From Methanolobus mangrovi (GTDB lineage: Archaea; Halobacteriota; Methanosarcinia; Methanosarcinales; Methanosarcinaceae): DNA of 64,000 nucleotides. Shown here piece after piece: positions 53,074 through 57,875 of the stretch (positions are counted from its first letter, which is position 1; every line of letters begins with the position of its first letter). The position numbers and the translations under genes were made by a program. The notes under the pieces were generated by a model. It was not told where the DNA came from and ran no database searches. It worked only from the letters and a program-made list of their open reading frames with translations. The stretch covers positions 558,001-622,000 of the forward strand of contig NZ_CP133594.1 in assembly GCF_031312535.1 (NCBI RefSeq), in the 5' to 3' direction.

Positions 53074-55209
53074 CTAGAAGAACGTGGCCAAAGTTACCAT
53101 CAAGATCAAAAACAGCATAACAGGCCAGTACATCAGTTTTGCAAAGACATTGTCCTCGTACTCTATCACTGGTATCTTCCTATCTGAAGCATATATAATG
53201 GCATTGAAGGAAATTGCCAGCACCATGAAATACATAATGATATAGAAGTACTCAAGGTAAATGATGCCGGATGCCGTAAGGCTCTCTCGCAGAGAAACAT
53301 GTGCTACCATCAATACCAGCATCAATGAGGCACCATACTTCAATATCTCCGAAGAATCGGTGTCTGACTTGACCTCTGTGAAAAGTGCAATGAACAACAA
53401 CAATGCAATCAGAAGCAGAGGACTCATATATGTGATGAAGGGTGTCACAATGTCCCTCTTCATCTCTACATTGAAGTATAGCTCAGGATTAGCATTTTCT
53501 TTGTATCCATTGATACCAAAGTCGGTATCGTATTCATTGACTTTGTATGAGAAATAGCTCTTAGTGATATCCCAGCCTTCAAGAACAAAGTCTTTTTCGA
53601 TACCAGGCGTGGATTCCGGAGTAATCGAGTAATACGAGTCCAGATCAGGGACCAGGACAACGTTATCATCAAAGCCATCGCTCCATAATCTGATCCAGAC
53701 AGTTTCCATGTCAAATGGATAAGTTATGTAATCAAATTGTTCACGTAGTGTTGTTTCGAAGTACCAGCCTGTAACACCATCTTTTTCATAAGCATTGGTG
53801 ATACTTGTCGACTCAGACTCCGGGAAAATAATTCCGGGAACGTAATCATCAGCAATACCTTCGACATGCTTCTGCCATACATAGCCAGTAATAACTACAT
53901 CATTTCCCGATGCGAACTCAATGGATTGGATAAACATTCCGGTGGGAACCTTTAACATTGAATCACTAGTTGCTTCTTTTGTATTCACGTCATTGAGATA
54001 TACCTTTTCCAGGGAGCTTTCAAGTCCGGATTCATCGTAGAGGATGATATCATCCATATTTTCAGAAACATTATTGGTCATGGTAAGATTCCATACAACC
54101 CCAATCTCGATAAAACAAAGAATCGAGAATATGATCACTATTTTCCACATGGAAGCTTTTGTAGTTCCATTTCTGGTGAAAATGATGATCGAAAGAGATG
54201 TCAGCAACCCTATGATGCCCAGTGAAAGGTATATCTTCTCATGATAGAGTTCCTCATTCATATAATGCAGAACTTCGTCATCTTTGAGCACAACACCCAG
54301 GACCATGTCGGTTTGAGGTATTTCCTCATAGAATACCCATAGTTTGTTTCCACTATTGCTATCGTACACAGTGCTAACAGTGCCTGGGGATATGTCACTG
54401 GTGATCTGACCTAATACACTGTCAGTTTTTGAAATATCTGAAATGTTTCTGGTTACATAATCCTCTATGGGATGGGAGATGACATCTCCATCTTGAGAAA
54501 CAATAAATCCATATCCAGTCTTTCCTAATTCCAGAGAACCTATTATATCTCTCAAGCCTTCAAGGGAATAACTTGCATAGACAACTCCTGCAGGAGAGAT
54601 TCCCTGTTGCATGGCATATGTAGATTCAAAAGGTGTGGAATATTCAAAGATGTACCTGTTGCTGCGGCTACCAAAATACGGCTCATTCCATCCTCCTCCA
54701 TCGGTCAATGCACGGTGATACCATTCAGTGTTCGGTACATTCTCTTCCTCACCATTTTCCAGAGTATAATCATAGGATGCCTGGAAAAGTTGTGGCTCAC
54801 CATATTTTCTTGAATAGGTTGGTGCATAGAGGGGCAGGGATTGCGGATCCACCTCATAATTCTCAAAAGCACCTTTTTCATAGGCTACACCAACCCCAAA
54901 TATATTGGGATTAGAATTGATCGATCTATAAAGTAGCTCTTCAACCTGATCTTCCGATAAATTCCCGGAATTCAGATTAGAGGCAATCAATTGGGATGTA
55001 TCCGAAAGGACGATCAGAGTTGAGGATACCTGTAAAGAAGCACTATGCGCTTCAAGTCTGGCAGAGTCTATCGATGATTCTAACATCTTATCTGTACCAT
55101 AGATAAGATCGTAACCATAAGCTGCGACAACAAAAGAACTCACTATAAATATTACCAGGGATATTCCTATAATCAAATTTTTATAAGTATTATTGCTATG
55201 AGTGGACAA
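53074..55209 (-). CDS. Cache-domain protein fused to a Cys-loop (pro-loop)-like ligand-gated channel
   Basis: 711 residues. An N-terminal helix (about 12-32), an extracellular Cache domain (about 35-320, with TEWYHRALTDGGGWNEPYFG typical of Cache), two membrane helices (about 325-345, 352-377), then an extracellular strand-rich domain (about 380-590) containing YPFDMETVWIRLW, with YPFD at 497-500: the FPFD-like signature of the Cys-loop in pentameric ligand-gated channels, whose prokaryotic members keep the proline but lack the cysteines. Next come an MKRDIVTPFI segment and four closely spaced helices (about 592-612, 620-642, 649-672, 689-711), ending at the C-terminus, like M1-M4. It has no kinase or receptor domain. 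Role is inferred, not shown. Confidence 0.7.
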   Translation of the reverse strand: MSTHSNNTYKNLIIGISLVIFIVSSFVVAAYGYDLIYGTDKMLESSIDSARLEAHSASLQVSSTLIVLSDTSQLIASNLNSGNLSEDQVEELLYRSINSNPNIFGVGVAYEKGAFENYEVDPQSLPLYAPTYSRKYGEPQLFQASYDYTLENGEEENVPNTEWYHRALTDGGGWNEPYFGSRSNRYIFEYSTPFESTYAMQQGISPAGVVYASYSLEGLRDIIGSLELGKTGYGFIVSQDGDVISHPIEDYVTRNISDISKTDSVLGQITSDISPGTVSTVYDSNSGNKLWVFYEEIPQTDMVLGVVLKDDEVLHYMNEELYHEKIYLSLGIIGLLTSLSIIIFTRNGTTKASMWKIVIIFSILCFIEIGVVWNLTMTNNVSENMDDIILYDESGLESSLEKVYLNDVNTKEATSDSMLKVPTGMFIQSIEFASGNDVVITGYVWQKHVEGIADDYVPGIIFPESESTSITNAYEKDGVTGWYFETTLREQFDYITYPFDMETVWIRLWSDGFDDNVVLVPDLDSYYSITPESTPGIEKDFVLEGWDITKSYFSYKVNEYDTDFGINGYKENANPELYFNVEMKRDIVTPFITYMSPLLLIALLLFIALFTEVKSDTDSSEILKYGASLMLVLMVAHVSLRESLTASGIIYLEYFYIIMYFMVLAISFNAIIYASDRKIPVIEYEDNVFAKLMYWPVMLFLILMVTLATFF

Positions 55210-55486
55210 TTAAGCATCTCTCCAGTACCAGTGAACAAGGTAAAATAATAGTTGCAATATAATACTATAATTATATTTAGTTACCTCTATCGAGATGATC
55301 GACCTGAGTTTGCTATTGAATCATCTTACCGGATGAAAAATGCAACAAGATTTAAAAAGCTAAAAAAGGATAATTGCTATTTATTCATCTATAATGATAC
55401 GCTATCCAGTTACTCCTTTAACGACTGAGGGAGTAAGGTTTCATAAAATACATAAACCCAGAAACGGATAATTGGATGTTTTGTCG

Positions 55487-56356
55487 TTAGTATCTCATAT
55501 TCTCGCAAATACTAGTTTTAGCTTCCATGTATGAATTGACGGCTATTTCCATCGTCCCATCAACGTGGATAGTCTCCATATCAAATATCTTTGCAAATTC
55601 AGAAGCGTTTCTGTGAAAATTACTATCTTTACAGTTTTGATTGTTGATCTTAAAAAGAAGACTATACATCGGGCTGCTAAGATACTTACTGATTTTTCTA
55701 TAAGACTCAGTTGATCTGTAATCAGTTCCATTCATGCTGGAAAGCCACATCGGAGTTGCATATATAGCTCCTTTGCCGTTCCCAAGTAACATCGTTTTTG
55801 TGTAGACCTCGTTCCCTCCAAGTGCTACACTAATACAGTCATCAACAATGTTTCTTTCATTATCTTTCAGAAAATAAACATGACAATCAAGCTTCTGCAA
55901 GTCGGCCTGCACTTTTTCAGAACTATAGCCACATTTTCCATAGAAAAGAAGGATGCCATCTGATATTTTTGCCATTTCCCCGGCATTCAGATACACTTCA
56001 GACTGCAAACGATCAATATCAGAATGCAGATCTTTCCTGAGGAGATTCACAACAATTGTTAATTCCTGTTCCTTATTTCTATTTACGGCATCACTTATTT
56101 TCTTGAAGAGTGGAATGTTCGAAAAAGCAGTCATTAAACTGCCAGGTGATCTTTTGTCGATTTCTGATACGATAGGATATAATTTGTCAGACAAGAACAC
56201 AAAAGGCTTGAGATCATCTGATCTAAGTTTCTGTATAAATCTGAAACTGTTTCTGTTCTCTACTACAAACAAATTTTTGATATCAAGGTCTTTTGAGAGA
56301 ACATGCACCAATTCATCTTCAAGCATTTCGCAGGCAATTATACTTAACACTGGCAT
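55487..56356 (-). CDS. DUF1638 family protein
   Basis: 289 residues. Starts MPVLSIIACEMLEDELVHVL and carries the family's ILLFYGKCGYSS and NIVDDCISVALGG motifs and a late YATPMW motif. DUF1638 proteins occur mainly in methylotrophic methanogens and anaerobes, often near methyltransferase genes, and are of unknown function. It is 5 bases downstream of the second DUF1638 gene, so they are one operon. The protein is divergent from its neighbour, so the pair is an old duplication. Confidence 0.85.
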   Translation of the reverse strand: MPVLSIIACEMLEDELVHVLSKDLDIKNLFVVENRNSFRFIQKLRSDDLKPFVFLSDKLYPIVSEIDKRSPGSLMTAFSNIPLFKKISDAVNRNKEQELTIVVNLLRKDLHSDIDRLQSEVYLNAGEMAKISDGILLFYGKCGYSSEKVQADLQKLDCHVYFLKDNERNIVDDCISVALGGNEVYTKTMLLGNGKGAIYATPMWLSSMNGTDYRSTESYRKISKYLSSPMYSLLFKINNQNCKDSNFHRNASEFAKIFDMETIHVDGTMEIAVNSYMEAKTSICENMRY

Positions 56357-56361
56357 AATTA

Positions 56362-57168
56362 TTATTCACATAGTTTTGTCTTTATTTCATCCTTTATCGA
56401 GAGATAACATTTCTCGAAAATTTGCTGATTACCGCTGACCTCAAAGGTACTGTACCCAAACAAACTGGCATACTCTTCGATCTTTGCATCGATATCCTTT
56501 ACGTATGTCAGGCCTGTGTTGACCTTTGCAACCCTTGAATATCCTGCAAGGTCATTGACCATTTTTGCCATCTTGAGCGCTTTTTCAGGGTCTGGATGAT
56601 ATTTAGTAAAGCCTAGAAGTTCTTTCCATGAACTGGCATACATGGGAGTGAAGAAGAAGGCAGGTTCTTTACTGTGTGTTTTAAGCAAGTTCAGATAATT
56701 AGCTCCACCGCCTACTGTTGCTCCGATGCAGTCATCCACAATTCTTACATCATCTCTCAATATCCTCACTATGCAGCCATCTTTCTCAAGGCAGAAATCC
56801 TCCTCTACCTTACCCAAAACATTTCCACAAAGCCCGTAAAAAAGCAGTATCCCATCTGAGAAGGGTATCATTTCCCTAATACTCTGGTAGACCTCGGATT
56901 TCAGTGTTTTAGGTACTGCATGAAGTCCAAGTTCCAGAATATTAACTACTACAATTGATTCATTTCTATCCATTTCCTCGAAAGTACTTGGTATCTTTTC
57001 TAAAGGTATGATCTCATAAGATACATGCTGTTCACTAAGTTTTTCTGTAAATTCAGAAATGTTCTCGTTCTCTACGATCATGATCTTATTGATTTCAGGA
57101 TCATTGGTGAAAAGCCAGACAATTTCATCCTGCATTATTTTACATGAAATAATACTCATAACAGGCAT
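56362..57168 (-). CDS. DUF1638 family protein, upstream partner
   Basis: 268 residues. Starts MPVMSIISCKIMQDEIVWLF and has the motifs ILLFYGLCGNVLG, RIVDDCIGATVGGG and FFTPMYASSW. First gene of the DUF1638 operon; a palindromic operator like that of the TetR gene lies 80 to 100 bases upstream, just before the TATA element (TTATAGATATTAA on the minus strand, about 57228-57242). This suggests control by the TetR protein next door. The reaction is unknown. Confidence 0.85.
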   Translation of the reverse strand: MPVMSIISCKIMQDEIVWLFTNDPEINKIMIVENENISEFTEKLSEQHVSYEIIPLEKIPSTFEEMDRNESIVVVNILELGLHAVPKTLKSEVYQSIREMIPFSDGILLFYGLCGNVLGKVEEDFCLEKDGCIVRILRDDVRIVDDCIGATVGGGANYLNLLKTHSKEPAFFFTPMYASSWKELLGFTKYHPDPEKALKMAKMVNDLAGYSRVAKVNTGLTYVKDIDAKIEEYASLFGYSTFEVSGNQQIFEKCYLSIKDEIKTKLCE

Positions 57169-57284: not shown

Positions 57285-57875
57285 TCAACCCCTCCATCCA
57301 AGATCGGATTTGATCGAGGAAATTGATCTGACAAGTGTTTTCCTACCTTTAATGCTGGATAGTAGTCTGGCTCCCATCAATGTTATGAATACATCTTCCG
57401 CACGTGCTTCTACGGAGTCTGAAAAATTGAATTCCCCTTTTTCCAGTCCGGTTCTGAGAACATTAGTGATCCAGTCAAGTATATCATCCATTAGCAACTT
57501 ATTTTGCTTTTGAACTTCCTCTGGAAGTTCTTCAAAACCCATGATCACTGAGCCAGGAGGACAGATCGTTTTACCTTCCTCGAACTCCTGTAATGCATAA
57601 TCAAAATAGTATTGAAGTTGCTCACGGGCAGACCCTCCTGCTTTCACTACTTGTGCAATAGAAATAGCTAAGTTCTTTCTTCTTTCTTCAAGCAAGGCAA
57701 CAACTAGATCTTCTTTCTTTGGGTAGTAATGATGGATCGAAGCATTTTTGATTCCAAGTTTCTGGGAAATGTCCCTATAGCTGAATCCATTATAACCCCG
57801 GCATTGCAAAAAGTGCCTTGCGTAATGGAGTATCTGTTGATTGGTAGGGTTCATATCTGTCATATAGGTCCACAT
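57285..57875 (-). CDS. TetR-family transcriptional repressor
   Basis: 196 residues. The N-terminal helix-turn-helix reads YARHFLQCRGYNGFSYRDIS then QKLGIKNASIHHYYPKKEDL, the classic TetR pattern; the C-terminal ligand domain (about 75-196) is helical. Two copies of one palindrome, one before this gene and one before the DUF1638 operon, indicate that it controls both. ATG 57875 is taken; ATGs at 57863 and 57854 are alternatives. Confidence 0.88.
   Translation of the reverse strand: MWTYMTDMNPTNQQILHYARHFLQCRGYNGFSYRDISQKLGIKNASIHHYYPKKEDLVVALLEERRKNLAISIAQVVKAGGSAREQLQYYFDYALQEFEEGKTICPPGSVIMGFEELPEEVQKQNKLLMDDILDWITNVLRTGLEKGEFNFSDSVEARAEDVFITLMGARLLSSIKGRKTLVRSISSIKSDLGWRG

Follow-up and report, generated by a model that had tools for sequence, protein, structure and literature searches.

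A methane-producing archaeon, Methanolobus mangrovi (2.62 Mb genome, single contig), carries on the minus strand of the DNA analysed here (the window, a stretch of 64,000 nucleotides) an open reading frame of 711 amino acids (55209..53074) that begins with TTG. The start codon is supported by a GGAGAG element read from the sequence 8 nt upstream (55223-55218), likely the ribosome-binding site of the gene, and by the start codon of one relative (L004), which falls at the same alignment position. At 0.402, the GC content of the gene differs little from that of the window (0.384). From the N-terminus, the encoded protein consists of a transmembrane (TM) helix, a dCache domain, two further TM helices, a beta-rich domain with the YPFD motif and R585, and finally four helices at the C-terminal end. 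The features are listed below, where pLGIC stands for pentameric ligand-gated channel.

53074..55209, minus strand: dCache-pLGIC fusion gene, 711 aa, TTG start, stop codon included; full-length homologues exist
55218..55223, minus strand: GGAGAG, likely ribosome-binding site, 8 nt before the TTG
55099..55188, minus strand: TM1, residues 8-37, signal anchor (hydropathy; helix in the AF2 model)
54262..55092, minus strand: extracellular dCache sensor domain, residues ~40-316 (Pfam; PDB sequence matches; Foldseek)
54172..54252, minus strand: TM2, residues ~320-346, leaving the Cache domain (hydropathy; AF2 model)
54076..54162, minus strand: helix M0, residues 350-378, with near-invariant W355 and W373 (AF2 models; alignment)
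53455..54072, minus strand: pLGIC-type extracellular ligand-binding beta-sandwich (LBD), residues 380-585 (profiles; AF2; Foldseek)
53710..53721, minus strand: Pro-loop motif YPFD, residues 497-500; P in 64/64 and D in 62/64 relatives; the [F/Y]PxD of Jaiteh et al.
53455..53457, minus strand: pre-M1 arginine R585, in 63/64 relatives
53377..53448, minus strand: M1, residues 588-611, with kink proline P597 (AF2 model; alignment)
53281..53355, minus strand: M2, residues 619-643, presumed to line the pore, R641 at its outer end (AF2 model; alignment)
53188..53259, minus strand: M3, residues 651-674; Y651 in 64/64, E653 in 63/64 (AF2 model; alignment)
53080..53148, minus strand: M4, residues 688-710, reaching the C-terminus (AF2 model; hydropathy)

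All the elements of the original prediction, namely a Cache domain, two helices in the middle, YPFD at 497-500, MKRDIV (583-588) and four helices with the last at the C-terminus, are present according to Pfam, hydropathy and AF2. Hydropathy places hydrophobic helices at about 8-37, 325-346, 349-378, 586-617, 622-640, 646-675 and 687-711, the last forming the C-terminal end. Neither this order nor the motifs are due to chance, since homologues keep the whole order at 27-67% identity across the entire protein, the Pro-loop proline in 64/64 and the pre-M1 arginine in 63/64 of them. The topology would be N-in, Cache-out, LBD-out and C-out, which fits the helix count and the positively charged residues of the TM2-M0 loop.

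Searches of Pfam, NCBIfam and PDB with the 711-aa sequence alone recognised the Cache part and returned no match for the channel half. Structure prediction with AF2, which yields monomers, gave a full-length model (64-row input alignment; pLDDT 89.7, pTM 0.85) comprising a dCache domain and a complete pLGIC subunit; Foldseek matched it to dCache sensors (2.0e-12) and to GABA-A receptor subunits (2.6e-11, ~335 columns). The original prediction had staked its case on residues 380-590 folding as a Cys-loop-type sandwich, and they do so in the model of the module alone (residues 350-711, pLDDT 88.7), which finds GABA-A receptor subunits at E 1.7e-14 over ~350 columns with a TM-score of 0.65 of the target. 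This match spans the extracellular and membrane domains together.

Profile comparison, which is independent of the fold model, points to pLGICs as well. Against all PDB chains, every one of the 60 matches listed for a 17-row profile (A2) is a GLIC chain or a GLIC chimera (E 2.3e-4 to 0.014), and the 60 listed for a 53-row profile (A5) comprise GLIC together with two gamma chains of the acetylcholine receptor (E 0.0011 to 0.05); these E-values are modest. In hhalign the family aligns with a 319-aa short archaeal channel of another family of the phylum (L026:1165-2121, genome G155) with prob 97 and E 4e-11; this channel has no Pfam match and hits NCBIfam LGIC_1 at 8.7e-8. The alignment with L106, a canonical cyanobacterial channel that Pfam recognises, is weak (prob 30, E 5.6e-4) and in register. 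LGIC_1 itself matches one of the 64 family members (E 2.8e-5), and the Pfam models Neur_chan_LBD and Neur_chan_memb (PF02931/PF02932) reach none of them. A search for PF02931 in the M. mangrovi genome and in a second genome, G074, gave no match anywhere, the controls likewise having none, and is therefore uninformative; the G074 homologue has a dCache match of 55.2 bits and 36% full-length identity.

The proline of the [F/Y]PxD motif in the beta6-beta7 loop is the only absolutely conserved residue of the superfamily, while the pre-M1 Arg occurs in 94%, the beta9 Trp in 71%, the M1 Pro in 77% and the M2-M3 Pro in 88% of members; in known pLGICs the pre-M1 Arg forms a salt bridge with the Pro-loop Asp (Jaiteh et al. 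2016, PMC4795631). Most of this signature is retained here: YPFD (P in 64/64 and D in 62/64 relatives), R585 (63/64), W546 as the beta9 Trp (61/64) and P597 in M1 (51/64), together with the predicted beta-sandwich and four helices (AF2, Foldseek) and the profile similarity to known members (A2, A5, the L026 alignment, LGIC_1). The M2-M3 loop proline, a residue that is common in the superfamily and not defining, is replaced by T645 and is found in 7/64 relatives. Family-specific residues are R641 (64/64), Y651 (64/64) and E653 (63/64). M2 can be set against GLIC either through a shared histidine (H637/GLIC H235) or by counting residues backwards from the M2-M3 loop; these two registers lie four residues apart, and the numbering of pore residues depends on the choice.

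Directly before the LBD lies a further helix, M0 (350-378), in which W355 and W373 are conserved in 90% or more of 62 sequences, among them 15 short forms without a Cache domain. Since both tryptophans persist in long and short forms alike, M0 is probably more than a signal peptide of the short proteins and more than a stalk for Cache in the long proteins; forms with and without Cache have it in common as a fifth helix of the module. No hydrophobic N-terminal helix was found in the open frame of L106, the canonical cyanobacterial channel.

The original prediction called for a survey of other methanogens, and the module proved to be present in 15 of the 112 Methanosarcinaceae genomes searched (6/14 genera); a phylum-wide draw of 295 genomes contained one genome outside this family with even a weak match. 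Outside this group, an alignment query of GTDB representatives gave 122 confirmed stretches, and 79 loci were read. By length, 47 of these are long (>600 aa) and 19 short, while 8 are intermediate and 5 partial. Pattern scans with a single protein against genome and viral contigs had no hits, and phage records gave no match to the family. Long forms are spread over at least 12 phyla, both archaeal and bacterial, although single phylum labels may be wrong because several members come from metagenome bins; dCache_1 matches 41/64 aligned members. The short forms group as a single clade (SH-aLRT 99) in the tree of the module, where the three architectures require 3 changes compared with 15.8 for shuffled labels. 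The Cache fusion is thus broad and stable on this tree; the direction of change (loss or gain of Cache) depends on where the root is placed.

Several members vary the N-terminal region. A Spirulina sp. protein (L077:3046-6918, 1291 aa) carries a TPR array, a dCache domain and then the channel module; a 1267-aa archaeal form in genome G008 (L032:3181-6981; same gene in L114) has two MCP-like_PDC_1 stretches, and so probably a pair of Cache units ahead of the channel module; the same genome carries a second copy (L031). In Chloroflexota and related lineages (L065, L076, L084, L085, L096; ~450-500 aa), three helices replace the Cache domain before the module. A 641-aa pLGIC of Xenococcus (L107:973-2898) has a different large N-terminal region, perhaps with DeCLIC-like repeats.

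The sensor half is a dCache domain by Pfam, PDB sequence matches and Foldseek. PF02743 matches at E 3.1e-11 and 43.7 bits, 1.3 under its 45-bit cut-off, and Cache_3-Cache_2 (33.2 bits, cut-off 27.7) and MCP-like_PDC_1 (33.6 bits, cut-off 27) both pass theirs. The predicted pocket retains W163, Y164 and Y178. In the PDB-match alignment, T161 and S213 occupy the positions where amino-acid sensors carry Arg and Asp (the dCache_1AA motif; R126 and D173 in PctA), and S213 also stands in place of the dCache_1AM Asp (D235 in PctD, equivalent to the D173 position in PctA). Both motifs are therefore missing, and amino-acid and amine ligands were rejected on this ground. Position 213 is N or S in 29/46 long forms.

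As originally described, the gene sits between a Cache/PAS kinase gene and two DUF1638 genes, with TetR and DUF2115 genes also in its flanks; the tandem DUF1638 genes (55487-57168) adjoin the gene for the TetR-type regulator (57285-57875). An operon with the kinase or DUF1638 genes was considered and rejected, as the loci of seven relatives that were inspected have no neighbour in common, and the 711-aa gene looks like a stand-alone receptor gene. At L113:3704-5797 (genome G097), the neighbour of the channel gene has an eCIS_core domain.

The reading of the channel half as a pLGIC-type module, put forward in the original prediction, has held at the level of fold and of profile matches to pLGIC chains, and the 711-aa protein is almost certainly a pLGIC homologue. 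The contrary view, that an unrelated beta-domain was joined to four helices and YPFD arose by chance, could draw on the lack of any Pfam match for the channel half in the 711-aa protein and in the 17 module sequences scanned. It is very improbable indeed: the fold match of ~1e-14 across both domains contradicts it, the profile hits among the matches listed are limited to pLGIC chains, and the conserved residues occur in the right order and spacing. On balance, we favour a homopentameric Pro-loop (Cys-loop-type) receptor channel with its own extracellular dCache domain on each subunit. A small molecule would bind the Cache domain, and the resulting change would pass through TM2 and M0, or through contact with the channel extracellular domain (ECD), to the interface of Pro-loop, pre-M1 and M2-M3; the M2 pore would then open and turn an outside chemical signal into an ion flux. 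Ion conduction, with any selectivity among ions, and the direction of coupling are presumed in this scheme, in which gating may answer to Cache ligands; we hold the whole of it to be probable, as long as the role of Cache is taken broadly, as trigger or strong modulator. Several points weigh against it: the lack of a Pfam Neur_chan match, the modest profile E-values, the weak L106 alignment, T645 and the symmetry of dCache dimers. dCache domains usually function as dimers, and a five-fold assembly therefore poses a symmetry question.

The proposed mechanism competes chiefly with a channel in which Cache merely captures ligand or mildly tunes, while another ligand, or protons or Ca2+, gates at the classical inter-subunit site of the ECD. 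That the Cache-less relatives, which keep the same LBD and helices, form one clade means that the module stands alone; in DeCLIC the N-terminal domain is a modulator (PMC12664993), and Tasneem et al. (PMC549065) suggested that extra domains concentrate ligand. Such a channel is rather unlikely all the same: the Cache-less forms require few changes on the tree, and the retention of the Cache form in at least 12 phyla speaks for a real function of this domain in the proteins that have it. Improbable, too, is a non-conducting receptor that uses the pLGIC fold to signal to a partner such as the neighbouring Cache/PAS kinase. The strongly hydrophobic M2, the loss of the M2-M3 proline and the sensor kinase gene next door in the window would suit such a receptor, but the kinase is not a conserved neighbour in the seven loci, the protein has a short M3-M4 loop and no cytoplasmic signalling domain, and the gating interface (Pro-loop, pre-M1 Arg, M1 Pro) is retained. 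It is possible, though we offer this tentatively, that the family belongs to a broad branch of Pro-loop receptors, as yet without a name, that has five helices and in which coupling would rely on M0 instead of extracellular contact: the Cache signal would run through the TM2-M0 hairpin within the membrane to the pore, an R641-E653 pair would replace the M2-M3 proline, and the Cache-less forms of this branch would descend from an old Cache fusion.

Little is known of the natural ligands and roles of prokaryotic pLGICs. Because an isolated Cache domain is amenable to expression and ligand screening, this family offers a direct route to what physiologically triggers a prokaryotic relative of nerve receptors. 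It also exposes a gap in annotation: with Pfam pLGIC models reaching 0/64 members, these proteins are likely filed as Cache or hypothetical proteins, and one deposited relative is indeed annotated 'hypothetical protein'. Contrary to what the original prediction implied, the architecture is not new. According to Tasneem et al. 2004 (PMC549065), such channels occur in Methanosarcina, MCP-N + Cache + LBD + 4-TM proteins are also found in Cytophaga and Microbulbifer, and chemotactic or allosteric roles were proposed for the fusions; by Pfam, AF2 and Foldseek, the 711-aa protein is of this type, with an N-terminal MCP-N/Cache region on an LBD + 4-TM core. Theirs was the only treatment of Cache fused to Cys-loop-type channels among the open-access papers searched; Jaiteh et al. 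2016 (PMC4795631) left terminal domains aside and considered experiments necessary for biological conclusions. What is added here is the breadth of the fusion and its stability on the tree, the common M0 helix, the M2-M3 proline that is mostly lost, the near-invariant R641 and E653, the absence of the amino-acid and amine motifs from the Cache pocket and the unconserved neighbours. The common extra helix and the variation of the coupling loop are the more novel part, with no report among the open-access papers searched.

The closest known systems are the MCP-N + Cache + ART-LGIC fusions of Methanosarcina, a different genus of the same archaeal family, which show the same order of sensor, LBD and four helices; the TM2-M0 hairpin, the conserved M0 and the loss of the M2-M3 proline are not described in the passages of that report consulted (PMC549065). 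GLIC and ELIC are alike in the ECD + 4-TM fold, in [F/Y]PxD without the cysteines, in the pre-M1 Arg and M1 Pro and in the short M3-M4 loop. To our knowledge, both lack an N-terminal sensor and an M0 helix. The M2-M3 Pro is retained in GLIC (P247; PMC4795631), whereas the 711-aa protein has T645. Its sensor fold is the same as that of PctA/PctB and of M. mazei mmHK1S-Z2/Z3 (PDB 3li8/3lib). However, the output of dCache chemoreceptors and kinases is a kinase or chemotaxis module, in contrast with the channel-type module found here, and the amino-acid and amine motifs of such sensors are not retained. We know of no membrane helices between the N-terminal lobes and the ECD of DeCLIC. The lobes of DeCLIC are related to other regulatory domains (PMC12664993), whereas the 711-aa protein has a dCache domain and, after it, a hairpin of two helices. 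DeCLIC is likewise a pLGIC extended at its N-terminus by a large extracellular module (PMC12664993, PMC9897478), and is stated to be the only prokaryotic pLGIC whose N-terminal domain is even partly characterised (PMC12664993).
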